This document shows positions 717 to 25,350 of a DNA stretch of 64,000 nucleotides, piece after piece (position 1 is the first letter of the stretch; each line of letters begins with the position of its first letter). This stretch comes from Nostoc carneum NIES-2107. Lineage in GTDB: Bacteria > Cyanobacteriota > Cyanobacteriia > Cyanobacteriales > Nostocaceae. The notes beneath the pieces were generated by a model. That model ran no database searches. It worked only from the letters and a program-made list of their open reading frames with translations, and was not told where the DNA came from. The position numbers and the translations under genes are program-made. The stretch spans positions 1 through 64,000 of the forward strand of contig AP018180.1 in the NCBI GenBank assembly GCA_002368155.1. Reading direction: 5' to 3'.

Positions 717-3700
717 TTAAAACACGGGTATTTCAATGATAAATTCTGTGCCTTCTCCTACATCTGAGTGACATTTCAACTCACCACCGTGCCTTTCTTC
801 AACAATTTGTTTAGCTATAGCCAACCCTAAACCTGTGCCTTTACCTACTGCCTTAGTAGTAAATAAATGGTCAAATATTTTTTGTCTAATTTCTGCGCTC
901 ATTCCCTTACCATTATCCGCAATGATAATTTTAACTAAATTATTTTCGACTAAAGTTGTCACGTTAATGCGGTTAGGATGAGCTTTAATTTCCTCAAGAT
1001 TACGTCCATGATTCGATTCCTCTAAGGCATCAATACCATTGGCTAAAATATTCATAAATACTTGATTTAGTTGCCCAGGGAAACATTCTATTGGTGGTAA
1101 ATTACCGTAGTTAGTGATTACTTCAATCGCGGGACGTTGTTCGTTAGCTTTCAGACGGTGTTTGAGAATTAATATTGTACTATCAATGCCTTCGTGAATA
1201 TTAAATGGCACTTTGTAATCTTTGTCAGCACGGGAGAAAGTGCGTAGAGAAGTGCTGATATTTTTTAACCTATCGCAAGCCATTGTCATAGAATCAAGCA
1301 TTTTGGGTAGGTCTTCTATACTATATTCCAAGTCAATTTCTGACTCGTGGTCGAGGATTTCTTCAGTTTTATCGGGTAAAGTTGCTTGATAGATTTTCAA
1401 ATGTTCAATAATATCAGTAAAGGTGGGTTTAGCTTGTTTGAGACTTGCCGTAATAAATCCTAAAGGATTATTCATTTCATGGGCGACACCAGCGACTAAG
1501 TTACCCAAGGCGGACATTTTCTCACTTTGAATAATTCGTAATTGGGCTTGTTGTAAGTCTTGTAATGCTTGTTCTAATTCTTGGGATTTTTGCTGTAGGG
1601 CAAGTTCTGCTTGTTTGCGATCGCTAATATCTCGCATCACAACAACCGCACCAACTTTGTTACCCCAAGAATCGAAGATTGCTTGTCCGCTCGCTAACAA
1701 ACTCCTTCGCTCACCCTGCTTAGGTGCAATCACCATTTCGGCATTTTCGACGATTTCCCCTTGTAAGGCTCGCAACAATGGTATTTCTGTTTTTAATAGA
1801 AGTGTTTGACCATCTGCTTGATAGAGTGAGAAATGTTCTGCCCATTGTTCTGGTGGTAATGATTTCACTGGTAAACCATGAAATTCTTCAGTTGCTTTGT
1901 TAAATAAAATCAGTTTGCCACTCGCATCACAAACAACAATCCCATCGGTAATATTCTCAATAATTGCCTTCAAAAACTCTCGTTCTTTGGCTAGGGAGGC
2001 TTCGGTGTGTTGTAATTGTTCTAGTGATGCTTGTAATGACTGAGATTTTTCCTGTTCTCGTTCATAAAGTCGGGCATTTTCTAAGGAAATGGCGGCTTGG
2101 GTGCAAAGCAAATTGAATAGTTCGACGCGATCGCTCGTAAACGCCCCTGTCACTAAATTATTTTCTAGATATAAAATCCCTAACAATTTACCTTGATGTA
2201 AAATCGGGCTACACAAAATACTCTGAGGTTGCTGACGGATAATATAAGGGTCATTGGCTAAGGTGGTATCTGCGGTTGCATCCAATAAGACAACAGTCTG
2301 TTGACTATGCTTGACTTTATAAATGAGCTTGTGGGGAATATCTTGGCTATCTGCAATGGAAAGACTTTGCTGCACAACGGGTTTTGTTCCCTGGGTAATT
2401 GCACCTTGAATTAGTAAATGATTTTCTTGTAGCAGCATTAACACGCATTTATCAGCCCCAGCATTTTCAATCACGATTCTCAGTAACGATGAAAGTAGTT
2501 TGGACAGTTCGATTTCACCAGAAATAGTTTGAGATGCTGTGAGAATTGCTTTTAAATCTAGAGTATCTGAGACACTGCTGCTAGAACTGGAAGATGTCAC
2601 ATTCCCCAAGGCGAAGATAGTTTCATTAGTGGAAACAACAGAACGGCTTTGCTGTAATATCGGGGCGAGTAATTGGGGATAGCGTTTTTCTAAGTCGGCG
2701 ACTTTCGCCTTTGCTCCCCAGCGCGCATAGGCATAGTAAGCTTCAATCATATATTCTTGAGCTAAACGCTGTTTCCCCCAAGCTAGGTAGAATTTAGCGG
2801 CGATTTCGTTAGCTAGTGCTTCTTCTTGGATATATTCATTGGCTTTAGCTAGAGATATTGCTTGGTCATAGAGTTCACTAGCTTCGGCTTTATGTCCGAA
2901 AAAGCGACTTTTTTCTGCCTCTACCAAATCAAACTTATGCTGGTGATTCATGGGTGCATAGTGCGCCCATAGCTGTAATTGAGTTTGATTTTTTTCCACC
3001 CTCTCTAATAGGCTTGATTCTTCACCGGAGAATTGATTTAATTGTGCTAAAGCAATCAATGAATCATAAAAATAAAAAGCAGGTTCACTAATTTTCCCCG
3101 CGCCTCCCATGAAATAGTTTCTACACTCAAGGGCATAATTGTTAGCTTGCTCAATTTCCTCAAACAAAAAGCAAAGGGTCAATTTAGATGAGTAGAAAAT
3201 AAATAATCCATAGAAATCATTTGCAGATAGTAGCAAAGGGAGCAATTCTGTTTCTTGGCAAGCCGAGCCAGATAAAATAGTGGGATGCTCTGCAAAACCC
3301 AGTAAATTTAAAATTACTTGCCAATAAATTACACAATAATTAGCTGTTCCCAACTGCTTCAATTGCACTAAAGCATTGTAGTAAGTGTGAGTTTCTCGTT
3401 CTAAGGTAGCGAGATTTTGACCGCACCAAAAAGAATATCGGCAGAAAGTCTGACCACTATATCCGGCATATTCCAGGTTGCCAACTTCTAGCCCCAATGT
3501 GTAACTTTCACTCAAGAGGGGTAATGTTTCTTTGAGGTGAGATGTGCGGTGGAGAATATAACTGCCCAACAGAAACAATACTTCAGGTTTAGTGGTTTTA
3601 TCATCAAATTTTGATGCCACATTCAATGACAATTGCCCAAATTGTGCTGCCAAATCTATATTTTGCTGCAGATTACAAACAACCAAACTATAGCAAGCAT

Positions 3701-6563
3701 AGTTAGTTGCAGAAATAGATATATTGCCATACTGGAGGAATAATTTGACTAATAAGGTAGCTAGTAATGGATACACAGGAGATCCACAAGTGTAAGCTGC
3801 TGACATGATGCTGCTAGTAATCTGGGCAATGGCAATTTTGTTTGCATCTGTCATCACCGGGAGGTTAACAAAATCTGCGACTTGGCGATCGCCAATCAGG
3901 TCACTAATTTCTTGAATTGACTGTTGAATATCTTCTGGTGTGGGTGATTCGTTGATTGTTACACCCAACCTGTGCAGAAGTTCAATCCCAATTGCCAGCA
4001 CTTCCATGAGTTGACGGTGGGAAATTTTGGCTTGAATTTTAAAACGGTAAACATTGACCTGTTCCAGTAAAGAATTTGTCTGTTGGATGACAGTATCAAT
4101 CAACTTTTCCATCACCTCAAACTCACCACTTAGCATAGCTACTTCCGCAGCTAATTCATGGAAGAAGAGGCTCATTTCATACTGCTGTTGCCAAGCATTT
4201 TCTCCTAACAAAGACAATCCCACTGTGGCATATTCACGGGCTGCTTTATAGGCGGTAGAATTTTTGGCTTTGCGACAGGCGATGAGGTTAAGTTCGGCTA
4301 GTTCTGTTCGTTGTGTTTGTTCGCTAATTAAAGCAGTTCCATAATTTAATTGATTGACTATTTCAAAAATGCGTTCAACTCTTAAATCTGGAGCAGTTTG
4401 TTGCAGCAGTAGTTGACCAATTTGATAGTGAGTTGCTTGTTTTTGGTCATGAGGAATCAGAGAATAAGCCGCTTGTTGTACTCGGTCATGGATAAATTTG
4501 TAGGCAACATTTTGTTGATTTATTGATATGTCTACAATATTTTCTTGCCCAACATAAAACTTATAAACATCCCCAATTGGTACAATCAACCCTTCTTGTA
4601 ATGCTTTCCATAAACAAGCTGCTGTTTCAATTTGAGATTGTTCGGCAACAATGGCTAAAGTGGTTAAATCAAAAGAATTACCAATACAAGCTGCCAGTTT
4701 GATGATTTCTTGTGTTGATGATGATAGCTTACGTAATTGCAGACTCATAAAAGCCACAACATCATCTGTCACCGCTTGCATTGTCACTTGGGAAATATCA
4801 CATTGCCAACAGCCCAATCCAAAATCAAATTGAATCAGTCCATCTTGATATAATGTTTTAATAAATTGAATAGCAAAAAATGGATTACCTTCTGTTTTTT
4901 GGTAGATTAACACAGAAAAATTCCAGGCTAATTCTTCTGGACATTTAAGTGTGTCAGCCACTAATTTATTTACTTGGACGTTACTTAATGGTGCTAAAAT
5001 AATTGTGTTGATTGTGGCTTGTATCTTTTGAATTTCACTCAAAGTTAATAACAATGGATGCCCAGGATAGACCTCGTTATCACGATATGCACCAATAATA
5101 AAAAGATGCCCTGTATCAGCCATTAATAGTTGCATTAACTTTAATGATGCAGAATCAGCCCATTGCAAATCATCTAAAAATATTACTAAGGGGTGTTCTT
5201 TGCTAGTAAAGACTTGGGTGAATTTTTGAAATGATAAATTAAAGCGATTTTGGGCTGCTGTTCCTGATAGTTCTGTAGCTGGTGGTTGTTGACCAATAAT
5301 GTTTTCTAATTCGGGAATTACTTCAATAATTACTTGTCCATTGTCCCCAACAGCCTCTAATATTTTATTTCTCCATTGCTGAATTTGCACATCGCTTTCA
5401 GTCAATAATTGCCCCATTAAATCGCGGAATGCTTGCACAAAAGCACTAAAGGGAATATTCCGTTGAAATTGGTCATATTTACCTTTAATAAAATAACCGC
5501 GCTGTCTGACAATTGGTTTATGCACTTCGTTGACAACGGCTGTTTTACCAATTCCAGAAAACCCAGCAACAAGCATCATTTCTGTTGTACCCTGGCTGAC
5601 TCTATCAAATGCTTCTAGTAGGGTTTGAACTTCCTTGTCTCGTCCATAAAGTTTATCAGGGATGATGAAGCGATCGCACACATCTTTTTGTGCAATTTCA
5701 AAGTTTCTAATCTCACCAGTTGCTCTTAGCTGAATTAAACATTTTTCTAAATCAAATTTCAAGCCTAATGCACTTTGATATCTATCTTCAGCATTTTTCG
5801 CCATCAACTTGCTGACGATTTTTGAGAGAACAGTGGGGATTTGCGGATTAATTTGATCTATGAATGGCGGAATTTTTGCCAGATGAGAATGTACCAATTC
5901 CATTGGGTCATTTGATGCAAATGGTAATTCTCCTGCCAGCAATTCGTAAAAAGTCACTCCCAGAGAATAAAAATCTGTGCGATAATCAATCCCCCGATTC
6001 ATTCTCCCTGTTTGTTCTGGAGAGATATAAGCAAGTGTTCCCTCTAATACATTGGGGTTAACGAGGGTTTGGGTTTCTCTGGGTAATAATGATGCAATAC
6101 TAAAGTCGATTAATTTAACTTGTTTAGTTTCCGGATTAATTAAGATATTGCCGGGTTTAATATCTTTATGAATAATTCTCTCATGGTAGAGTAAGTCTAG
6201 GATGTCACAGAGGGCGATCGCTAAAACTAAAAACTCCTCTAAAGATGTGACACGCTGATTTTTAGTAAAATAATCCTTGAGGGAAATTCCCCCAAAGTCT
6301 TCCATGACTAACATATAGCCATTTTGCAAGGATTCAAGGCTATAGGTTTGGATAATTAGAGGTGAATTGAGATTTTTGCCAATCGTGTACTGATTGCGAA
6401 ATAACAAAAGTTCGCTAAAGCTGGGATAAGAATTTTTCAGCAGTTTGATCACTACTGGTACTGAGTCACTTTCTCGAACTGCGCGATAAACTATTGTTCT
6501 CGAACCATTGTAGATTTCTTCACTAATGCGATATCCGGGAATACTGACAAGAGTGCTAACCAT
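717..6563 (-). CDS. giant Ser/Thr kinase - AAA ATPase - GAF - PAS - histidine kinase (paralog 1)
   Basis: Hybrid sensor of about 1,948 residues. Domains in order: a Ser/Thr kinase-like domain (about 10-275; Lys40, HKD at 132-134, DFS instead of DFG at 153-155); an AAA ATPase (Walker A GFSGIGKT at 334-341, Walker B VIFLDDLQWAD); a long helical TPR-like middle (about 650-1300); GAF (about 1345-1485); PAS (about 1525-1650, ending DISDRKQAEL); and a histidine kinase core with His1695 in GVAHEMNNPLG and the ATP lid [11 protein letters not shown]. This is the multi-sensor kinase family common in Nostocales. It has no transmembrane segment, so it is probably cytoplasmic. The ATG at 6563 is chosen over in-frame upstream codons because paralog 3 begins at the equivalent residue. 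It is the only one of the three with a PAS domain. Its head is almost identical to that of the paralog at 13124-18529. Inputs and partners are unknown. Confidence 0.93.
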   Translation of the reverse strand: MVSTLVSIPGYRISEEIYNGSRTIVYRAVRESDSVPVVIKLLKNSYPSFSELLLFRNQYTIGKNLNSPLIIQTYSLESLQNGYMLVMEDFGGISLKDYFTKNQRVTSLEEFLVLAIALCDILDLLYHERIIHKDIKPGNILINPETKQVKLIDFSIASLLPRETQTLVNPNVLEGTLAYISPEQTGRMNRGIDYRTDFYSLGVTFYELLAGELPFASNDPMELVHSHLAKIPPFIDQINPQIPTVLSKIVSKLMAKNAEDRYQSALGLKFDLEKCLIQLRATGEIRNFEIAQKDVCDRFIIPDKLYGRDKEVQTLLEAFDRVSQGTTEMMLVAGFSGIGKTAVVNEVHKPIVRQRGYFIKGKYDQFQRNIPFSAFVQAFRDLMGQLLTESDVQIQQWRNKILEAVGDNGQVIIEVIPELENIIGQQPPATELSGTAAQNRFNLSFQKFTQVFTSKEHPLVIFLDDLQWADSASLKLMQLLMADTGHLFIIGAYRDNEVYPGHPLLLTLSEIQKIQATINTIILAPLSNVQVNKLVADTLKCPEELAWNFSVLIYQKTEGNPFFAIQFIKTLYQDGLIQFDFGLGCWQCDISQVTMQAVTDDVVAFMSLQLRKLSSSTQEIIKLAACIGNSFDLTTLAIVAEQSQIETAACLWKALQEGLIVPIGDVYKFYVGQENIVDISINQQNVAYKFIHDRVQQAAYSLIPHDQKQATHYQIGQLLLQQTAPDLRVERIFEIVNQLNYGTALISEQTQRTELAELNLIACRKAKNSTAYKAAREYATVGLSLLGENAWQQQYEMSLFFHELAAEVAMLSGEFEVMEKLIDTVIQQTNSLLEQVNVYRFKIQAKISHRQLMEVLAIGIELLHRLGVTINESPTPEDIQQSIQEISDLIGDRQVADFVNLPVMTDANKIAIAQITSSIMSAAYTCGSPVYPLLATLLVKLFLQYGNISISATNYACYSLVVCNLQQNIDLAAQFGQLSLNVASKFDDKTTKPEVLFLLGSYILHRTSHLKETLPLLSESYTLGLEVGNLEYAGYSGQTFCRYSFWCGQNLATLERETHTYYNALVQLKQLGTANYCVIYWQVILNLLGFAEHPTILSGSACQETELLPLLLSANDFYGLFIFYSSKLTLCFLFEEIEQANNYALECRNYFMGGAGKISEPAFYFYDSLIALAQLNQFSGEESSLLERVEKNQTQLQLWAHYAPMNHQHKFDLVEAEKSRFFGHKAEASELYDQAISLAKANEYIQEEALANEIAAKFYLAWGKQRLAQEYMIEAYYAYARWGAKAKVADLEKRYPQLLAPILQQSRSVVSTNETIFALGNVTSSSSSSSVSDTLDLKAILTASQTISGEIELSKLLSSLLRIVIENAGADKCVLMLLQENHLLIQGAITQGTKPVVQQSLSIADSQDIPHKLIYKVKHSQQTVVLLDATADTTLANDPYIIRQQPQSILCSPILHQGKLLGILYLENNLVTGAFTSDRVELFNLLCTQAAISLENARLYEREQEKSQSLQASLEQLQHTEASLAKEREFLKAIIENITDGIVVCDASGKLILFNKATEEFHGLPVKSLPPEQWAEHFSLYQADGQTLLLKTEIPLLRALQGEIVENAEMVIAPKQGERRSLLASGQAIFDSWGNKVGAVVVMRDISDRKQAELALQQKSQELEQALQDLQQAQLRIIQSEKMSALGNLVAGVAHEMNNPLGFITASLKQAKPTFTDIIEHLKIYQATLPDKTEEILDHESEIDLEYSIEDLPKMLDSMTMACDRLKNISTSLRTFSRADKDYKVPFNIHEGIDSTILILKHRLKANEQRPAIEVITNYGNLPPIECFPGQLNQVFMNILANGIDALEESNHGRNLEEIKAHPNRINVTTLVENNLVKIIIADNGKGMSAEIRQKIFDHLFTTKAVGKGTGLGLAIAKQIVEERHGGELKCHSDVGEGTEFIIEIPVF

Positions 6564-6592
6564 ATTGCGCTCATCTGAATAATTTCTCAGTC

Positions 6593-6606
6593 TAGTATTC
6601 CCAGAT
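6593..6606 (-). promoter_or_regulatory. shared TGGGAATA motif upstream of paralog 1
   Basis: On the coding strand this reads CTGGGAATACTA, about 30 bases before the start codon. The same core occurs at similar distances before three other genes of the array and the kinase remnant. Its role as -10 region, operator or RNA element is unknown. Confidence 0.4.
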
Positions 6607-6618
6607 AGATAAGTAGAG

Positions 6619-7905: not shown

Positions 7906-7946
7906 TTTGGAACTGTGGACATCAATAAAATTGCAGTAGCAGATGC

Positions 7947-10445: not shown

Positions 10446-10481
10446 GGAAAATGAGCCAAATGAGTTGAGCGAGGAATTTTC

Positions 10482-10688
10482 TCAACGCTTATCGACAAAT
10501 TGATGACTTGAAAACTCAATTAAAATATTGCTAGTTTGAATATTTTTATGCAGAATACACTGGCGGTAGGCTACATCCAAGGGATTGCAGAATGCGATCG
10601 CATTTTCTAAAAATTCCTGTAAAGATAGTTGAGTGTCCCTGGCTGTCCACACCTGAAGAGAAATTCCGCCAAAGTCTTCTATCATCAA
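10482..10688 (-). pseudogene. remnant of a fourth giant Ser/Thr kinase
   Basis: A 68-codon frame matches only the middle of the Ser/Thr kinase domain of the giant paralogs. It starts at the segment equivalent to VMEDFGGISLKD (here MIEDFGGISLQV) and ends shortly after the catalytic loop. HKDIKP has become HKNIQT, so the catalytic Asp is lost. The ATP-binding lobe, activation segment and every downstream domain are missing. A TGGGAATA motif like those of the intact genes survives upstream at 10,731-10,745. It is best read as a decayed or deleted copy left between the two dCache kinases; expression as a functional peptide is unlikely. Confidence 0.75.
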
Positions 10689-10730
10689 CCCATTTCCTCA
10701 GCATAACGATAAATTTTGAATAGCTCTGTA

Positions 10731-10745
10731 TTTAATATTCCCAAA
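10731..10745 (-). promoter_or_regulatory. TGGGAATA motif preserved upstream of the kinase remnant
   Basis: The coding strand reads TTTGGGAATATTAAA, similar to the motif before the intact array genes. It lies about 45-55 bases from the first residue of the remnant frame. Confidence 0.3.
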
Positions 10746-10824
10746 TCCGCTTAAGAAAATTAAAGCAGCAGAATTTTGAGCATAAATAAATATCTAAACA
10801 AAATCAATCGCACACATTATTTCT

Positions 10825-13071: not shown

Positions 13072-13095
13072 ACTAAACCCGTAAGATTTATGGCT

Positions 13096-13109
13096 TTAGT
13101 ATTCCCAAC
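13096..13109 (-). promoter_or_regulatory. shared TGGGAATA motif upstream of the dCache-HAMP kinase
   Basis: The coding strand reads TTGGGAATACTAA, 25-38 bases before the ATG at 13071. It matches the motif before paralogs 1, 2 and 3, although this gene is otherwise a different kinase type. Confidence 0.4.
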
Positions 13110-13123
13110 TACACCGAAAAACT

Positions 13124-16100
13124 TTAAAATACGGGTATTTCGATGATAAATTCGGTTCCTTCTCCTAAAGCTGACTCACATTTCAACTTTCCACCGTGGG
13201 TTTCTTCCACAATCTGACGCGCGATCGCTAATCCTAATCCTGTACCTTTACCCACGGCTTTGGTGGTGAATAAATGGTCAAAAATCTTGTCTTTTACGGA
13301 TGCAGTCATACCTTTACCGTTGTCTGCGATCGCAATTTTCACTTTTCTATCTGCAACTGAGGTGGTAACTGTAATCTGGTTGGGATTGGCTTGAATTTCT
13401 GCAAATTTTCGCCCCTGATTGGACTCATCTAAGGCATCAATAGCATTGGCTAAGATATTCATAAATACCTGATTTAATTGCCCAGGAAAACATTCCACTA
13501 AAGGTAAATCGCCATAGTTGGTAATTACTTCAATAGCGGGACGGTGTTCGTTAGCTTTCAGGCGATGTTTAAGAATTAAAATCGTGCTATCTATACCTTC
13601 ATGAATATTAAATGGCACTTTGTAATCTTTATCAGCACGGGAGAATGTTCTTAAACTAGTGCTAATATTTTTTAACCTATCACACGCCATCGTCATTGAT
13701 GCAATCATCTTGGGCAAGTCTTTTAAGCTATATTCCAAGTCGATTTCATCGGCATGATCGAGAATTTCTTCTCCTGGTTCAGTAAAGTTTTGCTGATATA
13801 GATTTAAGTGGTTAACAATATCATTCAAAGTGGGTTGAGCTTGTACCAAGCTAGCAGAAATAAAGCCCAAAGGATTATTCATTTCATGAGCTACCCCGGC
13901 TACTAAATTACCCAAAGCTGACATTTTTTCACTTTGTACGATTTGTAATTGGGCTTTTTGTAAGTCTTGTAATGCTTGTTCTAGCTGTTGGGCATATTTC
14001 TGCGAACGTTGATAAAGTCGGGCATTTTCTAGGGAAATTGCGGCTTGGGCGCAAACTAAATTCAATAGTTCCACGCGATCGCTTGTGAATGCTCCCTTTG
14101 TTAAATTATTTTCTAGATATAAAATGCCCAGTAATTTACCTTGGTGTAAAATCGGGCTGCACAAGATACTTTGAGGTTGCTGACGGATAATATAGGGGTC
14201 ATTGGCGAAAGTCATATCTGTGTTTGCATCCAGTAGCACCACAGTTTGTTGATTGTTTTTGACTTTGTAAATTAGCATTTGGGGAATATCTTGGCTGTCT
14301 GCAATGGGAAGACTTTGTAAAACAATCGCTGGCGTTATTTGGGTAATTGTGCCTTGAATTAATAGATGATTGTCTTGCAACAGTATCAACACGCATTTAT
14401 CAGCCCCAGCATTTTCGATGACGATGGAAAGCAACGATGAAAGCAGTTTTTCTAGTTCGATTTCACTGGAGATAGTTTGAGATGCTTTGAGAATAGCCCC
14501 TAAATCTAAAGCCGCAGAAGCACTGATGTTAGATGTAGCGGAACTGGTGGAGGTGACAGTCCCCAAGGTGAAGATAGTTTCGTTAGTGGAAACAACAGAA
14601 CGGCTTTGCTGTAATATCGGTGCAAGTAATTGGGGATAGCGTTTTTCTAAGTCGGCAACTTTGGCTTTTGCTCCCCAACGGGCATAACAATAATATGACT
14701 CTTGTATATAACCTGCTGCGACTTTCTCTTTCTCCCAGTTCAGATAGAATTTAGCAGCAAGTTCATTAGCAAGGGCTTCTTCTTGGATGTAACCGCTGGC
14801 TTTAGCTTGAGAAATAGCTCGGTCGTAAAATTCTATTGCAGTGGTTTTATCACCTAAAACTCGATGTTTTTCCGCCTCCACTAAATAGAATCGATGCAAC
14901 TGATTCATAGGTGCATAATTTGCCCACTGTTGCATGATTTGTTGATTTTCTGCTACCTGCTGTAAAATATCCTGTTGTTGTATGGTTGATGCTGTAGGAA
15001 ATAAAGCGAGTTGCACTAAAGAATCATAAAAGTTGAGCAATGAGATGCTAGGCAGTGCATATCCTGAACCAGAATATTGTTTAGCTTTAATCGCATATTC
15101 CACTGCCAAATCTAGGACTTGAAACAGATAACAAAGCATCAGTTTGTTGACACAAAAATGCCAGAAACTATTAGGGTCAATACTTTGCTCATTTAATACC
15201 TGCGTTGACTTCTCATCGTAGACTGTACCAACTAATTCCCAAGGTGCAGCTGTTGCTTTGATTAAATTCAAGACTGTTTGGTGATAAATATTGTGAAAAT
15301 TTAGTGCCGCTTGTTTGTGAATTTTGGCTAAAGCTGCACTATAAATCGCCAATTCATTCGCTAGTGTAGTTAATTCTTGACCAACGACATAAGCGTGGTA
15401 GCAATAAGCAGATGCACCATAACAGGCAAAAGCTAAGTCTCCAATCTCTAAACCTCTGGCATAGGCTTGCAGTAAGGGCTTGAGGGTAGCGGTTAGAGGT
15501 TCTTTCCAATGGGTGATAAAACCATTAACAACTACTAGAACTCTCGCTTCATATTCATGGTTTGAAAACTTGGAAAGCAGTTGCAAGGCTAACTGACCAA
15601 ATTCATAACCTTGGGGGATACTGTTTGACTGACCACTCAGCATCAGTCCATACCCTGAATAAACAAAGGCACTGGCGGAGCTATTACCGTATTTGATGGA
15701 TAGAGGCACTTTCTTCAGGACTAGCAAGCGGTGGAGTTGCGGTTTTGCTAAATAAGCAGGGATGTCTACTTTAACTAAGACACGCAAGGCCGCACGTAAT
15801 TCCGGCTGCTGCATTTCTGGTAAATCAGCTAACTCAGTTACTGTTTTATCACACAGAAGAGCCTGAATTTCCTGTAAACCCAGAAAAAAATCTTCATCTG
15901 TTGGTTCTTCTGGAAACTCAATGCCAATTGGCCGCAAAAATTGCATAGCTGTATCAATAGCTGCCAAGAACTGACTTTGGTTTGTGGAGGATTCAATTTT
16001 GACTTCGTAGACTTTGGCTGTATCAATGATTGCTTTGGCTTGTTGTAACACTTCCTGAGCCAAGTTTTCCATTAAGTCTAGTTCGCCACTGAGATAACTG

Positions 16101-18529
16101 GCTTCGGTCGCTTCGTTATATAAGCTTAAGGTGAAATCATAGTCAGATTGCCAAGGGTTGGTGGGGAGTAAATCAATACTGATTTTTAGGTAAGCTAGTG
16201 CAGCATTATAGGCCGTTGAGGCTTTAGCTTTTTTGCCAGCGATAAAGTTTAATCGGGATAGTTGATGGCGTTCTTGTGGTTCACGGAATTGTTCAATGCC
16301 AATATTTAATTGATTTGCGATCGCAAAAACCTGTTCCTCTAGTTCTGCTTCTGGGGTGCTTTCCCACAGTAAACGACCGATTTTGACATGGGTTGTCTGT
16401 TTTTGGTCTTCTGGGATTAATGAGTAAGCCGCTTGTTGGACGCGATCGTGCAGGAATTTATAAACAAAAATTTCCCCATTTTCTTGATTCACATCTTGGT
16501 TTTCTGTACCCACAAAAAACTTATAAATCTCTGTCTGCGGTAAAATCAAGCCTGACTGCAAAGCACTCCATAAACAAGTTGCAGTTTCTACTATAGATTC
16601 TTGACAAACTAAAGCTAATGTTTTTAAATCAAATTCATTCCCAATACAAGCTGCTATCTGTAAAATATTTTGTGTTGCTTGTGGTAGTTTTTGCAGTTGC
16701 ACAGCCATAAACTCAACTACATTATCAGAAATTGCTAAGGCTTTCACTGCACTAATGTCACACTGCCAATTGCTCCCCTCCCAGTCAAATGTAATCAGTC
16801 CATCTTCATACAATGACTTGAGAAACTGCGTACTAAAAAAAGGATTACCCTGGGTTTTATGATATACTAATTGAGTTAATGTTTGAGCAATTATTGGTGA
16901 ACATTTTAGCGTATCTGCCACAAGTAAATTTAAGCTAAAATCATTCAATGGTGCCAGGGTAACAGTATTTATTGTGCCTTGAAACTTAATAATTTCAGCT
17001 AAAGTGAGCATCAAGGGATGGGCGGCTGAAACTTCATTATCTCGATAAGCCCCAATTAATAATAAATATTCGTTAGCTGATTCATTCATCAACAATTGCA
17101 TTAAATTTAAAGATGCTGAATCTGCCCACTGTAAATCATCTAAAAATATGACTAAGGGATGTTCTTTAGTTGCCAATACTCGCACAAACTTCTGGAATAA
17201 TAAATTAAATCTGTTTTGAGCAGCATTACCTGATAATTCTATGGCGGGTGGTTGTTGACCAATAATACGTTCTAATTCGGGGATAACTTCAATAATTACC
17301 TGTCCATTTTCACCAACAGCCGCTAAAATATGACGCTTATATTCCTGGATTTGAGCATCATTTTCTGTTAACAATTGTCCCATTAAATCGCGGAAAGCTT
17401 GCACAAATGCCGAAAAGGGAATATTACGATTAAACTGGTCGAATTTGCCTTTAATAAAATAGCCGCGTTGTCTGACAATGGGCTTATGCACTTCGTTGAC
17501 AACGGCTGTTTTACCAATTCCAGAAAACCCAGCCACCAGCATCATTTCTGTTGTACCTTGGCTGACTCTATCGAAAGCTGCTAGTAGGGTTTCTACTTCG
17601 GTTTCTCTACCATATAATTTATCAGGAATGATGAAGCGATCGCACACATCCCTACTAGCAATCTCAAAACTTTGGATTGCACCAGTTTCTCTTAACTGAG
17701 TTAGACATTTTTCTAAATCAAATTTTAATCCCAACACACTCTGATATCTGTCTTCAGCATTTTTCGCCATCAGCTTACTGACGATTTTTGAGATAACTGA
17801 TGGGATATCTAGATTAATTTCATGTGCCAAAGGTGCTGTTTTAGCAATATGAGAATGTACCAATTCCATCGCATCCTTAGATGGGAATGGTAACTCATTT
17901 GTGAGTAACTCATAGAATGTCACACCGAGGGAATAAAAATCTGTGCGATAGTCAATCCCCCGATTCATTCTGCCTGTTTGTTCAGGAGAAATATAAGCAA
18001 GTGTTCCTTCTAAAACATTCGGGTTAACTAGGGTTTGGGTTTCTCTGGGTAATAATGATGCAATACTAAAGTCGATTAATTTAACTTGTTTAGTTTCCGG
18101 ATTAATTAAGATATTGCTGGGTTTGATATCTTTATGAATAATTCGCTCATGGTAGAGTAAATCTAGGATTTCACACAGAGCGATCGCTAAAACTAAAAAC
18201 TCCTCTAAAGATGTGACACGCTGATTTTTCGTAAAATAATCCTTGAGGGAAATTCCCCCAAAGTCTTCCATGACTAACATATAGCCATTTTGAAAGGATT
18301 CAAGGCTATAGGTTTGGATAATTATGGGTGAATTGAGATTTTTGCCAATCGTGTATTGATTGCGAAATAATAACAGTTCGCTAAAGCTGGGATAAGGATT
18401 TTTCAGTAGTTTGATAACTACTGGTACTGAGTCACTTTCTCGAACTGCACGATAAACTATTGTTCTCGAACCATTGTAGATTTCTTCACTAATGCGATAT
18501 CCAGGAATACTGACGAGAGTGCTAACCAT
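13124..18529 (-). CDS. giant Ser/Thr kinase - AAA ATPase - GAF - histidine kinase (paralog 2)
   Basis: Hybrid sensor of about 1,801 residues: Ser/Thr kinase-like domain (about 10-275, HKD catalytic loop, DFS), AAA ATPase (GFSGIGKT at about 334-341, VIFLDDLQWAD), helical TPR-like middle (about 650-1300), GAF (about 1356-1496), and histidine kinase with His1548 in GVAHEMNNPLG. It lacks the PAS domain of paralog 1. The gene is a mosaic: its first 200 or so codons are nearly identical to paralog 1, its linker and GAF also resemble paralog 1, its kinase core is nearly identical to paralog 3, and its middle differs from both. The ATG at 18529 is chosen to match the other paralogs; an in-frame ATG at 18556 overlaps the upstream motif region. 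Likely cytoplasmic. The signal is unknown, but the divergent middle may set partner specificity. Confidence 0.93.
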   Translation of the reverse strand: MVSTLVSIPGYRISEEIYNGSRTIVYRAVRESDSVPVVIKLLKNPYPSFSELLLFRNQYTIGKNLNSPIIIQTYSLESFQNGYMLVMEDFGGISLKDYFTKNQRVTSLEEFLVLAIALCEILDLLYHERIIHKDIKPSNILINPETKQVKLIDFSIASLLPRETQTLVNPNVLEGTLAYISPEQTGRMNRGIDYRTDFYSLGVTFYELLTNELPFPSKDAMELVHSHIAKTAPLAHEINLDIPSVISKIVSKLMAKNAEDRYQSVLGLKFDLEKCLTQLRETGAIQSFEIASRDVCDRFIIPDKLYGRETEVETLLAAFDRVSQGTTEMMLVAGFSGIGKTAVVNEVHKPIVRQRGYFIKGKFDQFNRNIPFSAFVQAFRDLMGQLLTENDAQIQEYKRHILAAVGENGQVIIEVIPELERIIGQQPPAIELSGNAAQNRFNLLFQKFVRVLATKEHPLVIFLDDLQWADSASLNLMQLLMNESANEYLLLIGAYRDNEVSAAHPLMLTLAEIIKFQGTINTVTLAPLNDFSLNLLVADTLKCSPIIAQTLTQLVYHKTQGNPFFSTQFLKSLYEDGLITFDWEGSNWQCDISAVKALAISDNVVEFMAVQLQKLPQATQNILQIAACIGNEFDLKTLALVCQESIVETATCLWSALQSGLILPQTEIYKFFVGTENQDVNQENGEIFVYKFLHDRVQQAAYSLIPEDQKQTTHVKIGRLLWESTPEAELEEQVFAIANQLNIGIEQFREPQERHQLSRLNFIAGKKAKASTAYNAALAYLKISIDLLPTNPWQSDYDFTLSLYNEATEASYLSGELDLMENLAQEVLQQAKAIIDTAKVYEVKIESSTNQSQFLAAIDTAMQFLRPIGIEFPEEPTDEDFFLGLQEIQALLCDKTVTELADLPEMQQPELRAALRVLVKVDIPAYLAKPQLHRLLVLKKVPLSIKYGNSSASAFVYSGYGLMLSGQSNSIPQGYEFGQLALQLLSKFSNHEYEARVLVVVNGFITHWKEPLTATLKPLLQAYARGLEIGDLAFACYGASAYCYHAYVVGQELTTLANELAIYSAALAKIHKQAALNFHNIYHQTVLNLIKATAAPWELVGTVYDEKSTQVLNEQSIDPNSFWHFCVNKLMLCYLFQVLDLAVEYAIKAKQYSGSGYALPSISLLNFYDSLVQLALFPTASTIQQQDILQQVAENQQIMQQWANYAPMNQLHRFYLVEAEKHRVLGDKTTAIEFYDRAISQAKASGYIQEEALANELAAKFYLNWEKEKVAAGYIQESYYCYARWGAKAKVADLEKRYPQLLAPILQQSRSVVSTNETIFTLGTVTSTSSATSNISASAALDLGAILKASQTISSEIELEKLLSSLLSIVIENAGADKCVLILLQDNHLLIQGTITQITPAIVLQSLPIADSQDIPQMLIYKVKNNQQTVVLLDANTDMTFANDPYIIRQQPQSILCSPILHQGKLLGILYLENNLTKGAFTSDRVELLNLVCAQAAISLENARLYQRSQKYAQQLEQALQDLQKAQLQIVQSEKMSALGNLVAGVAHEMNNPLGFISASLVQAQPTLNDIVNHLNLYQQNFTEPGEEILDHADEIDLEYSLKDLPKMIASMTMACDRLKNISTSLRTFSRADKDYKVPFNIHEGIDSTILILKHRLKANEHRPAIEVITNYGDLPLVECFPGQLNQVFMNILANAIDALDESNQGRKFAEIQANPNQITVTTSVADRKVKIAIADNGKGMTASVKDKIFDHLFTTKAVGKGTGLGLAIARQIVEETHGGKLKCESALGEGTEFIIEIPVF

Positions 18530-18558
18530 ATTGCGCTCATCTGAATAATTTCTCAATC

Positions 18559-18572
18559 TAGTATTCCCAAAT
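18559..18572 (-). promoter_or_regulatory. shared TGGGAATA motif upstream of paralog 2
   Basis: The coding strand reads TTTGGGAATACTA, 30 bases before the ATG at 18529. The whole spacer from here to the start codon is almost identical to that of paralog 1. Confidence 0.4.
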
Positions 18573-18604
18573 AGATGAATTTATCTGTAAGTCCAAGCTA
18601 CAAT

Positions 18605-21600
18605 TTACACGGGTATCTCAATAATAAATTCAGTACCTTCACTGATAAAAGATTGGCAATATAACTTACCATCGTGGGTTTCTTCCACAATCTGACGCGC
18701 GATCGCTAATCCTAATCCTGTACCTTTACCAACTGCTTTGGTGGTAAATAAATGGTCAAAAATCTTGTCTTTTACGGATGCAGTCATACCTTTACCGTTG
18801 TCTGCGATCGCAATTTTTACTTTTTTATCTACAACTGAGGTGGTAACTGTAATCTGGTTGGGATTGGCTTGAATTTCTGCAAATTTTCGCCCCTGATTGA
18901 ACTCATCTAAGGCATCAATAGCATTGGCTAAGATATTCATAAATACCTGATTTAATTGCCCAGGAAAACATTCCACTAAAGGTAACTCTCCATAGTTTGT
19001 AATTACTTCAATAGCGGGGCGTTGTTCGTTAGCTTTTAGGCGATGTTTAAGAATTAAAATCGTGCTATCTATGCCTTCATGAATATTAAATGGCACTTTG
19101 TAATCTTTATCAGCACGGGAGAATGTTCTTAAACTAGTGCTAATATTTTTTAACCTATCACACGCCATCGTCATTGATGCAATCATCTTGGGCAAGTCTT
19201 TTAAGCTATATTCCAGGTCGATTTCATCGGCATGATCGAGAATTTCTTCTCCTGGTTCAGTAAAGTTTTGCTGATATAGATTTAAGTGGTTAACAATATC
19301 ATTCAAAGTGGGTTGAGCTTGTACCAAACTAGCAGCAATAAAGCCTAAAGGATTATTCATTTCATGGGCTACCCCAGCTACTAAATTACCCAAAGCTGAC
19401 ATTTTCTCGCTTTGGACAATTTGTAATTGTGCCTGTTGTAAATCTTGCAATGCTTGCTGTGCTTGTTGATAAAGCCGTGCATTTTCAATTGAGATTGCAG
19501 CTTGAGAAGCAATCATTTTGATTGTTTGCAGGCGTTCTTGAGTAAATACTCCAGATGTTAAACTATTCTCGAGATAGATAATGCCTAACAAATGCCCTTG
19601 GTTAATAATTGGGGTACATAATACACTTTGCGGTTGATGTTGCAGCATATATTCCCCAAGTAACCCAGGAATATTTGTTTGGCAATTATTCATGACAACA
19701 GTTTCTTGAGTATTCTTAACGTAATTGATCAGGTTTCTTGGAATATGTTGACAAGTATCTATTGATTGTGAATCCAGAATGGTTTTTACCTCTGTCTGGA
19801 GAGGAGATTTGTAATCAATAAATGTTAATGCCTGGACTTGCCATTGATGCTCTTGGGGCAGTATCACTACAGATTTTTGTGCCCCAGAGTTTTCAAGGAT
19901 AATGAGAGTTAATTTGGCAATAAGTTCATCTAATTCCAAAGAACTAGAAATTGCTTGCGCTGCTTTGAGAACTGAATTTAAATCTAGAATATCGGAAATA
20001 GTACTTTTAACTGTGCAAGTAGAAGAAGATGTGGAAGTACTAATATTAGTGGCGATGGTTTCTAGGGGATCTAAACCAAATTTTTGTTGTTGTAAAATTG
20101 GTTGTAGCAGTTGCTGATAGCGTTTTTCTAAGTCATCGGTTTTGGCTTTTGCACCCCAACGGGCATAGCAGTAATATGCTTCTTGCATATAGCCAGCAGC
20201 AACCTTTTTTTTGCCCCAATCTAAATAAAATTTAGCTGCTAGTTCATTGGCTAATGCTTCTTCGTAACCATACTCATTTGCTTGAGCTTGGGAAATTGCT
20301 TGCTCATAAAGTTCAATCGCTTGAGTTTTTTCTTTGTTGATGCGTGCTTTTTCTGCTTGGATGAGTAAACATTTGTGCAGGATATTTTCTGGACAAGCTT
20401 TTGCCCAAAGATTTAATCTTTCTTCTAGAGGTATGAGTGCTTGCCAATGACGTTGTTTTTCGGTATTTTCAGTAGCAGTTTCCGCTAGTGCTAAATGCAT
20501 TAATGCTACATAAAAAACACTAGAAGGAACTTTAGCATGGCTAGCAATTGTATTTTCAATGATGCTGAGTTGGGGAATTAAATGAGGATAGGCAATTTTG
20601 TCATCAAATAAATAGGCATGGCGAATTTTTACAGAATATAACCAAGCCAAGTTATAGGGAGAATTATGGTATTTTTGCAAATATTGGGCTTCATTAAAAC
20701 TGTCATCATCAAAAGTAAATCGCGTTTTTGTTAATCCCAGAAGATTGCGAATTGGTTGAATTACTCCGGCTATTAAAGCATCCAAATTATCTAAGCTTTT
20801 GATATGCGCCATAAAAGCGGCGTGGTTTTGGGCGATCGCATACAAATCTTCTAAGTTCTTTCCGTAAGTCAGGCGATCGGAACCACTCTGCATCATCATA
20901 AAGCCGACTGTCAGCCAGTTTCCAGCTTCCATGCCATATTTATAGGCGTTGTTATAGTATTGATCCGCTTCTCTAATTGAGCGACTCCAGCTATGAACAT
21001 CAGCTGCAAACAAAAAGTTAGTCATACCGCGGACATCAGCATTATCAAACTGTTCGCATAGCTGTACAGCCATTTCGCCAAACTGATAAGCTGTAGCACA
21101 GTCTTTAAGTACACCATTGGCGATTAAGCCATAACCGACATAGCCAAAGGGAGACATATCGCTGTTACCATACTGCAAAGACAGTGTGGTCATTTTGGCG
21201 AGTGCTAATAATGCTAAGGTGCTTTGACCATCCAGCCATGCAGCATAGAAGAGAATTTGTAAAATTCGCAGGATTTCTGCAATGTTGGCATCTTGCATTT
21301 TGGCAGCTGCAAGAATGGATTCAATGGTGTGCTGCGCTAAAAATTGTTGAACTGTGGCGATTTCTGCATCTAGGCTAGCTTGAATCGTCTCCTGTGCTTG
21401 TGGCATTGTCCACCCAAGCAGCTGTAAACTTTGACGTTGAATGGCGATCGCTTCAGCATTTCTTCCCTGAAGTTGGTACTGAGTCATTTGTACGCGATAA
21501 ATTATCGCTTGATCCAGGGGAGTTTGAGCATAGGTAAGTGCTTCTCTATATAAAGCTTCGGCTTGGTCAAAGTGACTACAAAGATAAGCCGCTTCGGAAC

Positions 21601-24019
21601 CATCTCGATGTAAACTATACATGAGCGTATAGTTCGTATGCCAAGTATTTTCACACAATAAAGCGATACCAAGGGTGCAATAGTCCTGGGCGGCTTGATA
21701 AGCGGCGGAAAGTTTGGCTTTTTGTCCTGCTTTTAAATTGAGTGTAGCCAATTCTTGTTTCTGTTCATCTGTGGCGATCGCAGCTTTTCCCATATTCAGC
21801 TGGTTCACCAGGTCAAAAATCCGCTCTTCTTGTTCCTGTAGGGATAAGCCTTGTAACAACAATTGACCAATGCGGAAATGAGTATACTGCTTTTGCTCCT
21901 CTGGAATCAATGAGTATGCTGCTTGCTGAACCCGATCATGTAGGAATTTGTAGGTAACAATCTCGGAACCTTTCACCCCATCCTGCGATTCCCGCCCGAC
22001 ATAGAATTTATAAACTTCACTCTGGGGTAAAATTAGCCCTTCTTGTAAAGCTTTCCATAAAGCTGTAGCAGTTTCAGTTGGCGATTTTTCCCAAATAATT
22101 GCCAATGTCACTAAATCAAAAGAGTTACCAATACAAGCTGCAAATTTGAGAATTTCCTGTGTGGTTTCTGGCAATTTTTGTAACTGTAATGCCATAAATT
22201 CGACAACATCATCAGAAAGAGATAAGGCTTTTACTTCTGCAATGTCGCATTGCCAATTGCCTTCATGCAAATTAAATTTAATCAATTTATCTTCATAGAG
22301 TGCCTTGAGAAACTGGGTGCTAAAAAATGGATTTCCTTGAGTTTTTTGGTAAATTAATTGTGTTAATGGCTGGGCAATTTCGGATGAACAACTTAAGGTA
22401 TCAGCCACCAATTGATTTAAACTAGAGAGGCTCAAAGGTGCTAGGGTAATAGTATTGATAGTAGCTTGAGCTTTTCTAATTTCGTCTAAAGTAAATATTA
22501 AAGGATGGGCGGCGGAAACTTCATTATCTCGATAAGCACCAATTAATAATAAATATCCTCCATGCGATTCACCCATCAGTAATTCAATCAACTTCAGTGA
22601 TGCTGAATCTGCCCATTGTAAATCATCTAAAAACATCACTAAAGGATGTTCTTTAGTAGTGAAGACCTGGACAAATTGCTGAAATAATAAATTAAAGCGA
22701 TTTTGAGCCGCAGTTCCCGATAGCTTGGTTGCTGGTGGTTGATGTCCAATAATTCTTTCTAATTCGGGAATAACTTCAATAATTACCTGACCATTTTCAC
22801 CTAAAGCCGCTAAGATCTTAGTTTTCCAAATTTTGATTTGAGCATCGCTTTCTGTAATTAATTGCCTCATTAAATCACGGAAGGCTTGCACAAATGCGGA
22901 AAAAGGAATGTTGCGATTAAATTGGTCGTATTTACCTTTAATAAAATAACCGCATTGACGAACAATCGGTTTATGTACTTCGTTGACAACCGCAGTTTTG
23001 CCAATCCCAGAAAACCCTGCTACTAGCATCATTTCTGTTGTACCGTGACTAACACGCTCAAATGCTTGCAGCAAGTTTTCTACTTCGCTGTCTCTGCCAT
23101 ATAATTTATCAGGAATAATAAAGCGATCGCACACATCCCGTTGTGCAATTGGGAAACTCTCAATCTTGCCAGTTTCCTTTAGTTGAAGCAAACACTTTTC
23201 TAAATCAAATTTTAGCCCTAATGCACTCTGATAGCGATTCTCAGCATTTTTCGCCATCAATTTGTTCACAATTTCTGAGAGTACAGGAGGAATTTTTGGG
23301 TTAATTGTATCTGCTAAAGGCGCAGTTTTCGCAATATGACAATGTACCAACTCCATTGCATCTTGGGTTGTAAATGGTAATTCTCCAGTTAGTAATTCAT
23401 AAAAACTGACACCCAAGGAATAAAAATCAGTGCGATAATCAATTCCCCGATTCATCCGTCCAGTTTGTTCTGGAGAAATATAACCTAATGTCCCTTCCAA
23501 CACATTAGGACTAATTAAAGTTTGCGTTTCTCTTGGTAGTAAAGATGCAATACTAAAGTCAATTAATTTTACCTGTTGCGTTTCCGGGTTAATCAGGATA
23601 TTGGCAGGTTTAATATCTTTATGAATAATCCGCTCGTGATATAGAATATCTAAGGTGTCGCAGAGTGCGATCGCAATCTTTAAAAATTCCTCTAGAGAGA
23701 TGCCACCTAAAGTTTCTACCTTAGCAAAATCCTTCAGAGAAATTCCCCCAAAGTCTTCCATTACCAACGCATAGCCATTTTGGTAAGGTTCCAAGCTATA
23801 GGTTTGGATGATACTAGGGTAGTTGAGATTTTTGGCGATTGTATATTGATTGCGAAACTGCACTATTTCGCCAAAACTGGGGTAAGCATTTTTAAGCAGC
23901 TTGATGACTACACCCAAAGAGTCAGCCTCTCGAACTGCGCGATAAACTAGAGTTCTGGAACCGTTGTAGAGTTCTGCACCAATCTGATATCCGGGAATAC
24001 TAACTACTGTGCTAAGCAT
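18605..24019 (-). CDS. giant Ser/Thr kinase - AAA ATPase - GAF - histidine kinase (paralog 3)
   Basis: Hybrid sensor of about 1,804 residues with the same order as paralog 2: Ser/Thr kinase-like domain (GYQIGAELYNGSRT head, HKDIKPANILI, DFS), AAA ATPase (GFSGIGKT, MFLDDLQWAD), helical middle, GAF (about 1363-1506), and histidine kinase with His1552. Its head is the most divergent of the three, and a short insertion in the kinase domain (KVETLGGISLEEF) repeats the preceding GGISL motif. The histidine kinase core is almost identical, including at the DNA level, to paralog 2, but its last 20 or so codons instead resemble the receiver-kinase at 6619-7905. It is the first gene of the array in transcription order. 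The middle region shares only scattered residues with the other two. Confidence 0.93.
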   Translation of the reverse strand: MLSTVVSIPGYQIGAELYNGSRTLVYRAVREADSLGVVIKLLKNAYPSFGEIVQFRNQYTIAKNLNYPSIIQTYSLEPYQNGYALVMEDFGGISLKDFAKVETLGGISLEEFLKIAIALCDTLDILYHERIIHKDIKPANILINPETQQVKLIDFSIASLLPRETQTLISPNVLEGTLGYISPEQTGRMNRGIDYRTDFYSLGVSFYELLTGELPFTTQDAMELVHCHIAKTAPLADTINPKIPPVLSEIVNKLMAKNAENRYQSALGLKFDLEKCLLQLKETGKIESFPIAQRDVCDRFIIPDKLYGRDSEVENLLQAFERVSHGTTEMMLVAGFSGIGKTAVVNEVHKPIVRQCGYFIKGKYDQFNRNIPFSAFVQAFRDLMRQLITESDAQIKIWKTKILAALGENGQVIIEVIPELERIIGHQPPATKLSGTAAQNRFNLLFQQFVQVFTTKEHPLVMFLDDLQWADSASLKLIELLMGESHGGYLLLIGAYRDNEVSAAHPLIFTLDEIRKAQATINTITLAPLSLSSLNQLVADTLSCSSEIAQPLTQLIYQKTQGNPFFSTQFLKALYEDKLIKFNLHEGNWQCDIAEVKALSLSDDVVEFMALQLQKLPETTQEILKFAACIGNSFDLVTLAIIWEKSPTETATALWKALQEGLILPQSEVYKFYVGRESQDGVKGSEIVTYKFLHDRVQQAAYSLIPEEQKQYTHFRIGQLLLQGLSLQEQEERIFDLVNQLNMGKAAIATDEQKQELATLNLKAGQKAKLSAAYQAAQDYCTLGIALLCENTWHTNYTLMYSLHRDGSEAAYLCSHFDQAEALYREALTYAQTPLDQAIIYRVQMTQYQLQGRNAEAIAIQRQSLQLLGWTMPQAQETIQASLDAEIATVQQFLAQHTIESILAAAKMQDANIAEILRILQILFYAAWLDGQSTLALLALAKMTTLSLQYGNSDMSPFGYVGYGLIANGVLKDCATAYQFGEMAVQLCEQFDNADVRGMTNFLFAADVHSWSRSIREADQYYNNAYKYGMEAGNWLTVGFMMMQSGSDRLTYGKNLEDLYAIAQNHAAFMAHIKSLDNLDALIAGVIQPIRNLLGLTKTRFTFDDDSFNEAQYLQKYHNSPYNLAWLYSVKIRHAYLFDDKIAYPHLIPQLSIIENTIASHAKVPSSVFYVALMHLALAETATENTEKQRHWQALIPLEERLNLWAKACPENILHKCLLIQAEKARINKEKTQAIELYEQAISQAQANEYGYEEALANELAAKFYLDWGKKKVAAGYMQEAYYCYARWGAKAKTDDLEKRYQQLLQPILQQQKFGLDPLETIATNISTSTSSSTCTVKSTISDILDLNSVLKAAQAISSSLELDELIAKLTLIILENSGAQKSVVILPQEHQWQVQALTFIDYKSPLQTEVKTILDSQSIDTCQHIPRNLINYVKNTQETVVMNNCQTNIPGLLGEYMLQHQPQSVLCTPIINQGHLLGIIYLENSLTSGVFTQERLQTIKMIASQAAISIENARLYQQAQQALQDLQQAQLQIVQSEKMSALGNLVAGVAHEMNNPLGFIAASLVQAQPTLNDIVNHLNLYQQNFTEPGEEILDHADEIDLEYSLKDLPKMIASMTMACDRLKNISTSLRTFSRADKDYKVPFNIHEGIDSTILILKHRLKANEQRPAIEVITNYGELPLVECFPGQLNQVFMNILANAIDALDEFNQGRKFAEIQANPNQITVTTSVVDKKVKIAIADNGKGMTASVKDKIFDHLFTTKAVGKGTGLGLAIARQIVEETHDGKLYCQSFISEGTEFIIEIPV

Positions 24020-24045: not shown

Positions 24046-24060
24046 TTTATTATTCCCAGT
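24046..24060 (-). promoter_or_regulatory. shared TGGGAATA motif upstream of paralog 3
   Basis: The coding strand reads ACTGGGAATAATAAA, about 30-40 bases before the start codon at 24019. Confidence 0.4.
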
Positions 24061-25159: not shown

Positions 25160-25350
25160 GAGAATTGGGCATTGGTAATGGGTAATGGGTAATGGGTAAT
25201 GAGTAATGGGTAATGAGTAATGAGTAATAGGAATGTTTAATTTATTCTTTTTCCCCCTGCACCCTCTCCCCCCAATCCCCAAAGGGGGCCCCGAGTCCCC
25301 AATCCCCAGTCCCCAATCCCCAATCCCCAGTCCCCAGTCCCCAATCCCCA
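25160..25350. repeat. tandem heptanucleotide repeats (GGTAATG and CCCCAAT/CCCCAGT types)
   Basis: Two blocks are seen: about eight GGTAATG/GAGTAAT units at 25,160-25,232, then repeated CCCCAATCCCCAGT units with an embedded AAGGGGGCCCCGAG core at 25,268-25,350. The core block is the inverted counterpart of the element at bases 1-56. Reading frames through it are low-complexity artefacts. Confidence 0.9.

Follow-up and report, generated by a model that had tools for sequence, protein, structure and literature searches.

The three giant sensor kinases encoded in tandem in the window (the whole 64,000-nucleotide stretch analyzed), here named H1, H2, and H3, are a real mosaic, and their locus is probably a plastic tandem HstK array in which homologous recombination within the conserved kinase ends brings in new members. 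Comparison with three related genomes showed H2 lying inside what is elsewhere a single H3-P6 junction, between two H3-type histidine kinase (HK) copies of about 714 bp. H2 itself was shown by segment comparisons to be a chimera: its core is of an old lineage, the solitary members of which carry a different head and HK, its head and spacer are array-type, and its HK is H3-type. HstK kinases are abundant in filamentous cyanobacteria, and the locus bears on how they multiply while gaining inputs. With breakpoints, acquired and displaced 3' ends, and insert-free outgroups all present at a single locus, the sequence itself indicates the route: incoming members would enter at the histidine-kinase seam and keep the resident ends.

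The source genome of the window (G000; 9.36 Mb, four contigs) has about 25 HstK-type genes. The open reading frames of H1, H2, and H3 comprise 1974, 1810, and 1804 codons, all on the minus strand and at the place given by the earlier reading of the DNA, which was made from sequence alone (hereafter the sequence-only reading). Besides these three, the array contains three further sensor kinases and one kinase-head remnant; in the direction of transcription, the order is H3, H2, P6, the remnant, P5, P4, and H1 (Table 1). The remnant, which appears to be the trace of a lost HstK gene, has counterparts with 95–97% nucleotide identity in genomes G003 and G004, and none was found in G006. Inverted copies of an intergenic repeat are located at both array flanks (1–58 and 25262–25318, 88% identity over 58 bp). 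A mobile element around the array was considered and rejected, as this 58-bp inverted pair turned out to be a dispersed repeat with 61 genome matches. Rfam gave no match within the window at the gathering threshold.

Table 1 Features of the HstK array, in positions of the window
Feature	Positions	Strand	Remarks
H3	18605..24019	-	HstK-type kinase (STK, AAA_16, TPR-like middle, GAF, HK), 1804 aa; likely start ATG 24019; orthologs in G002, G003, G004, G006
H2	13124..18529	-	HstK-type kinase, 1801 aa from ATG (likely start 18529); native core, array-type head, H3-type HK
H1	717..6563	-	HstK-type kinase, PAS domain preceding HK, 1948 aa from ATG (likely start 6563)
H1 head block	6008..6608	-	Spacer and codons 1 to about 185, near-identical to those of H2
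H2 head block	17974..18574	-	Spacer and codons 1 to about 185
H3 HK block	18674..19387	-	Corresponds to H2 codons 1541–1778; copy 1 of the putative duplicated tract
H2 HK block	13196..13909	-	H3-type; copy 2 of the putative duplicated tract
H3 last 22 codons and stop	18605..18673	-	Apparently acquired end; 65–68% nt identity to ortholog ends (G003, G004, G006)
Spacer, H3 to H2 ATG	18530..18604	-	Array-type
Putative ancestral 3' end of H3 and spacer to P6	13072..13195	-	Now ends H2; 88–94% nt identity to the H3 ends of three genomes
H2 middle	14900..16447	-	TPR-like; conserved core lineage
H1 middle	2943..4487	-	Nearest among the 21 genes compared: G002 a2
H3 middle	20381..21931	-	Nearest among the 21 genes compared: G002 a9, then G012 d2
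P6	10825..13071	-	dCache-HAMP-HK sensor kinase; ortholog adjoins H3 in G003, G004, G006
Ser/Thr-kinase head remnant	10500..10697	-	47% aa identity, E 5e-18; between P6 and P5
P5	7947..10445	-	dCache hybrid HK with receiver
P4	6619..7905	-	Receiver-HK protein
TGGGAATANTA matches	6593-6603, 10733-10743, 13097-13107, 18559-18569, 24048-24058	-	

Pfam searches identified Pkinase, AAA_16 (E-values 5.8e-43 to 8.6e-45), GAF, and HATPase_c domains in each of H1–H3, and a PAS domain in H1 as well. All three proteins combine an N-terminal Ser/Thr kinase and a C-terminal histidine kinase, with the GAF domain between both kinases, which is the arrangement of the HstK or cbSTKIII class. When simple patterns were applied to 21 genes (among them a3 of G002, which lacks its HK part), the Walker A pattern was found in 21/21 and Walker B in 18/21; the kinase Lys, HxD, and DF[SG] motifs occurred in 21/21, the H-box and G2 in 20/21, the N-box in 16/21, and G1 in 15/21. 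H1–H3 read DFS at the kinase motif for which DFG is the usual form.

Sliding windows along the codon alignment and a silent-site permutation confirmed that identity changes in sharp steps. The near-identity claimed for the H1 and H2 heads was borne out: up to column 180 the two genes shared 95% of nucleotides and 87–90% of third positions, which then fell to 86% and 76%, and the tract begins upstream of the ATG, within the spacer. Their dS, 0.19 in the head, lay between 0.69 and saturation in each of the nine remaining segments. The same held for the HK tails of H2 and H3, which were 96–99% identical at the nucleotide level until the last window (84%), with dS of 0.09 in the HK (0.09 and 0.11 when codons 1541–1778 were taken in two parts), 0.60 for the last codons, and values between 0.95 and saturation in the remaining segments. 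The middles (alignment columns 801–1180) were strongly diverged in all three genes, as had been stated, with 13–37% amino acid identity. A GENECONV-like test on silent sites with 10,000 permutations returned two tracts at its floor of p 0.0001, one between H1 and H2 at codons 4–167 (matches at 45/56 sites inside and 157/486 outside) and one between H2 and H3 at codons 1537–1774 (79/93 inside, 91/449 outside). A second short H2/H3 fragment, at codons 446–525 (19/35 sites), had a p of 0.0018 when the STK and AAA parts alone were used. No silent-site tract was detected between H1 and H3 (p 0.35), and recombination between these two was rejected on that ground. Recombination between array members is thus firmly supported.

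Uneven constraint, that is, conserved catalytic ends and a variable middle without recombination, agrees with one finding: among 16 tandem pairs from named genomes, 15 had a middle with lower similarity than their ends. However, the steps lie in silent sites, the dS between paralogs jumps about tenfold within one gene, the orthologous pair H3 and a9 (G002) stays at a steady dS of 0.18–0.41 from head to HK, and the trees of the segments conflict. The silent-site tracts in head and HK rule this explanation out, and we assign it a negligible probability.

Trees were built from 21 HstK genes taken from five genomes (the HK tree had 20), and their topologies differed among head, middle, and HK, as the proposal of separate trees had anticipated for recombination. 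In the middle tree, H2 grouped with c1, a7, b5, b3, b4, and d3, H1 with a2 and a3, and H3 with a9 and d2, while in the HK tree H2 paired with H3 and then a9. AU tests on the HK rejected H3 with a9 (p 0.0046), H2 with c1 (1e-6), and H1 with H2 (4e-40). For the NTPase, H1 with H2 was rejected (4e-57) and H2 with c1, a7, and b5 was not (0.47); the middle rejected both H1 with H2 (0.013) and H2 with H3 (1e-8). The head tree favored the same-genome pair H1/H2 (SH-aLRT 99), but rival groupings were not rejected by AU, with p 0.28 for H2 with c1 and 0.075 for H1 with a2; H2 with c1, a7, and b5 was rejected (0.003). The evidence from the head is therefore weaker than that from the HK. The head likeness of H1 and H2 is also only slightly above that to the best array heads of other species (94–96% versus at best 92–95% nucleotide identity per 50 codons), a5 of G002 ties with it at codons 151–200, and its best 100 codons (96.7%) fall below the 97% criterion that we applied to long runs. 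Six further genes of the H2 middle lineage sit at differing places in the head, NTPase, and HK trees.

The linker and GAF of H2 had been said to follow those of H1. The likeness exists, with nucleotide identity of 77–83% in H1/H2 versus 48–67% in the other two pairs and dS of 0.69 versus 1.43 and 1.54, but it does not denote a private event. The linker-GAF parts of H1 and H2 lie inside one well-supported clade of 12/21 genes, comprising most array genes of the genus, and AU tests on the GAF left both tested clades, H1 with H2 and H2 with c1, unrejected (p 0.18 and 0.31). Since the likeness is old and common to most array genes, it is not peculiar to H1 and H2, and a conversion restricted to these two genes in the GAF was discarded as unsupported by the dS of 0.69 and the breadth of the clade.

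The middles, which the sequence-only reading took to be diversifying, are instead old lineages with recognizable orthologs, not fast-changing regions. A search of 39 genomes gave partners of the H2 middle with 92, 88, and 86% identity in G004, G002, and G001, all of the same genus. Middle dN and dS values were 0.02/0.23 for H3/a9, 0.06/0.26 for H2/a7, 0.17/0.71 for H1/a2, and 0.04/0.10 for H2/c1; dN between orthologous partners was 0.02–0.07 for H2 and H3 and 0.17 for H1/a2, and the dN/dS ratio in ortholog comparisons was about 0.1–0.4.

The H2 core is matched by c1, a solitary HstK gene of G004, and by a gene of locus L081 from the metagenome-assembled genome of Nostoc sp. TH1S01, where it is preceded by another HstK. 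Compared with one another, these two genes had dS values of 0.10–0.30 in 7/10 segments and disagreed in the kinase C-lobe (0.61), the post-TPR segment (0.72), and the last codons (2.65). From NTPase to middle, H2 showed a dS of 0.07–0.22 to both, but its head (0.67–0.87) and HK (1.56–1.67) were far from theirs, and so H2 is recombinant. At a dS of 0.07–0.10, the H2 core lies two- to fourfold nearer to c1 than seven other G004 genes do to their counterparts (0.20–0.29), which suggests that the core moved between the lineages of G000 and G004. A separate observation concerns an HstK NTPase-middle 53% identical to that of H2 in a metagenome-assembled genome of Candidatus Parabeggiatoa (L136 9875-12673), suggesting transfer beyond cyanobacteria.

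In G003, G004, and G006, H3 is directly followed by P6, each time with a 53-bp spacer. In G000, the last 22–23 codons of H2 are 88–94% identical to the H3 ends of those three genomes, and the H2-P6 spacer resembles their H3-P6 spacers; the G000 H3 end resembles the ends of other array genes and is followed by an array-type spacer and the H2 head. At the HK end, 22 sites depart from the outgroup majority, 19/22 in H3 alone and none in H2 alone, and of the 67 departing sites in HK codons 1541–1778, 48 are common to H2 and H3. H2 thus carries the original 3' end and spacer of H3, and H3 a foreign end, which places H2 inside the former H3-P6 junction, the polarity of the exchange resting on parsimony. 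The dS of the HK block was 0.10 between H2 and H3 versus 0.36–0.38 between H3 and its orthologs of four genomes, so that in this tract paralogs are closer than orthologs, as also seen in the AU rejection of H3 with a9. Given the swapped ends and the H3-P6 junction, the shared H2/H3 tail is therefore best read as mainly the footprint of H2 entry, a 0.7-kb duplication.

In the mechanism that we propose, the incoming fragment would consist of an HK end, spacer, head, and core, and would cross over with the HK of H3 near codons 1779 and 1541; with the two crossover points overlapping on the target, the intervening stretch would be duplicated. Conversion may also have acted later, after H2 entry, and H2 might have come in by simple insertion, with conversion of the HK block following. 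As recombination would supply an old sensor core with neighboring genes' ends, the locus would gain and reshuffle whole signaling proteins between close relatives. H1 probably entered at the HK end of P4 in a manner like H2, as judged from one outgroup, G003. P4 was 89–99% identical to its G003 ortholog per 25 codons and then 54% in the last 25, and where it diverges, an array-type end, spacer, and the H1 head begin. Over its last 50 codons, H1 shows 92 and 86% identity to G003 P4, and its last 25 are 84% identical to the G003 H3 ortholog and 86% to G003 P4.

The same junction could be produced in the opposite direction if the ancestor had been H3-H2-P6 and G003, G004, and G006 had each lost H2 through recombination between the HK repeats. 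Excision between direct HK repeats would yield exactly the H3-P6 junction, and the G002 array has a gene of the H2 lineage, a7. We nevertheless regard this as quite improbable: three losses are required, or one in a common ancestor of G003, G004, and G006; the H2/H3 HK copies (dS 0.10) are younger than their separation from those three genomes as measured across this block (0.36–0.39); and the closeness of the H2 core to c1 of G004, relative to the seven other genes, points to transfer.

Entry of new members agrees with the variation at the locus, which was followed in eight genomes of the genus by anchoring on the upstream genes of 489 and 257 aa. No HstK was present in G001, G005, and G007, one in G003 and in G006, at least one in G004 (contig edge), three in G000, and nine in G002, of which one is split, besides a truncated gene. 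This spread of copy numbers, together with the empty sites and the remnants left in G000, G003, and G004, is the pattern of a birth-and-death array. Elsewhere in G001 there is a five-gene HstK array, and G012, from another genus, has three HstK genes in tandem. The G002 array ends with a 508-aa HstK fragment 92% identical to the N-terminal part of H1 (G002:C1:362712-364238), and one G002 HstK gene is split between the GAF and PAS-HK parts (379618-385414). The non-HstK kinases of the locus seem to be duplicated too: G003 has a second P5-P4 pair (G003:C116:174287-182268) with 60–61% identity to P5 and P4, and a stretch resembling the start of P6 follows its P4.

A wider sample of 79 loci, drawn from the best 80 of 274, contained 111 long ORFs (101 with a match), of which 94 complete HstK genes were kept. 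Adjacent pairs were defined as lying on the same strand less than 1500 bp apart, and the 28 pairs found are partly dependent, with L122 and L135 from one strain and L134 and L141 looking like one lineage; named genomes contributed 16 tandem pairs in 15/79 loci, and in 15/16 of them the middle was saturated or had a dS of at least 2. Long runs (at least 100 codons at 97% or more nucleotide identity) were detected in 7/28 adjacent pairs. Six of them carried a run within the HK; it terminated at codons 1780–1789 in five cases, and the long HK run of L134 extended to the stop; in the window, the run coincides with the insertion footprint. Long runs were also present in 2/39 non-adjacent same-array pairs and in 2/158 between-genome pairs, both orthologs. 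None was found in the 297 G000 pairs involving a gene outside the array (best 89.7%; 25 genes, 300 pairs), and a lowest-window dS below 0.3 occurred in 2/345 distant pairs, both involving H1 and pieces of a single gene located at 1.38 Mb. The tandem pairs of L134 and L141 had HK dS values of 0.06–0.11 with head, NTPase, and middle saturated or nearly so, and are clear further cases of HK exchange.

These HK tracts, found in six adjacent and two non-adjacent pairs and mostly ending where the last codons diverge, are what would be expected if gene conversion were ongoing among resident tandem genes, H2 being already present and its HK later overwritten by that of H3; the H2/H3 HK block being younger than the H3/ortholog block fits as well. 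Conversion alone leaves unexplained, however, why H2 has the original 3' end and spacer of H3 and why H3 adjoins P6 elsewhere, and the head tract (dS 0.19) is not younger than the split from G002, for which nine flanking genes gave dS values of 0.04–0.23. We consider this alternative unlikely. Of the original proposal of gene conversion, recombination among array members stands, but the tail is better read as a duplication on entry than as the product of conversion keeping the ends alike. Nor do outputs always converge, as had been supposed: the HKs of the array members G002 a5 and a8, G001 b2, and G012 d3 are only 46–49% identical to that of H2.

The TGGGAATACTA motif is a candidate upstream element. 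Five exact matches of TGGGAATANTA occur in the window (0.2 expected), all on the minus strand and upstream of H1, the remnant, P6, H2, and H3. The genome holds 10 occurrences of TGGGAATACTAAA versus one of its reversed control, 8/10 of them preceding HstK or other HK genes, and a looser form lies upstream of 13/25 HstK loci. The motif is possibly a shared promoter or 5' element.

Structure prediction rendered the middle as an all-helical superhelix (pLDDT mostly >80) and the NTPase part poorly (pLDDT mostly <50). The best Foldseek match of the middle model was PDB 6mfv, a TPR-bearing STAND protein (E 1.3e-5, TM 0.28–0.36), followed by general TPR proteins, and the H3 middle matched Pfam TPR_CHK1 at 26.2 bits, just below the cut-off of 27. 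With 6mfv as the top PDB match, the models place a helical superhelix, the putative sensor, after the NTPase, as in STAND proteins. By sequence, the best 60 of 1961 PDB matches were kinase or HK chains only, and among the 25 matches given in each list no NCBIfam family reached its curated cut-off for H1–H3. From the models we infer that H1–H3 may function as STAND-like switches, with the TPR core acting as sensor, the NTPase as gate, and the two kinases, Ser/Thr and His, as outputs. In such an arrangement, entry of a core would couple a new input to the outputs and upstream sequences that are already in place. We would guess from the neighborhood that P4 and P5 receive phosphate from H1–H3.

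A tentative extension, which we put forward with less than even confidence, is that the array is a docking platform where NTPase-TPR cores of solitary genes, moved between strains, are spliced through homologous recombination between a resident kinase head and a resident HK. If so, a single step would suffice for filamentous cyanobacteria to link other inputs to outputs they already have, comparable to the swapping of variable parts in immune-receptor or toxin-tip arrays. If cores are exchangeable, kinase-domain trees of HstK would mislead on functional orthologs, and the TPR middle would track identity. The array would also be a natural, testable design for chimeric sensor kinases.

Several known systems share features with this locus. 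In fungal Chk1-like hybrid histidine kinases, the kinase, NTPase, GAF, and HK follow one another much as they do here, although as single genes in fungi, and the H3 middle comes near their Pfam TPR_CHK1 family. STAND NTPases with TPR arms (PDB 6mfv) resemble H1–H3 in that a P-loop NTPase leads into an extended helical TPR superhelix; unlike 6mfv, the predicted switch of H1–H3 sits between a Ser/Thr kinase and a GAF-HK, and the TM-scores are low (0.28–0.36). A search of the open-licence literature turned up no article describing recombination tracts or insertion seams for HstK kinases. Zhang et al. (2007; PMC2176072), who cite Phalip et al. (2001), defined the cbSTKIII class with HstK, in which a single protein unites a Ser/Thr kinase, a GAF, and a HisKA domain, a composition like that of H1–H3; they described many copies in filamentous N2 fixers and an adjacent, co-transcribed, iron-responsive pair (Alr0709/Alr0710), and already proposed domain shuffling and duplication. 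Their comparison is one of domain trees, unlike the tracts, breakpoints, acquired ends, and array variation described here; the terms 'tandem' and 'gene conversion' are absent from the main text. Concerted evolution in prokaryotes (PMC6053082) is described, in a main text from which the term 'kinase' is absent, for genes such as psbA, psbD, and tuf, where paralogs within a genome are closer than orthologs, as are the HKs of H2 and H3. Unlike the cases presented there, H1–H3 are alike in parts of the gene only, and their cores differ.
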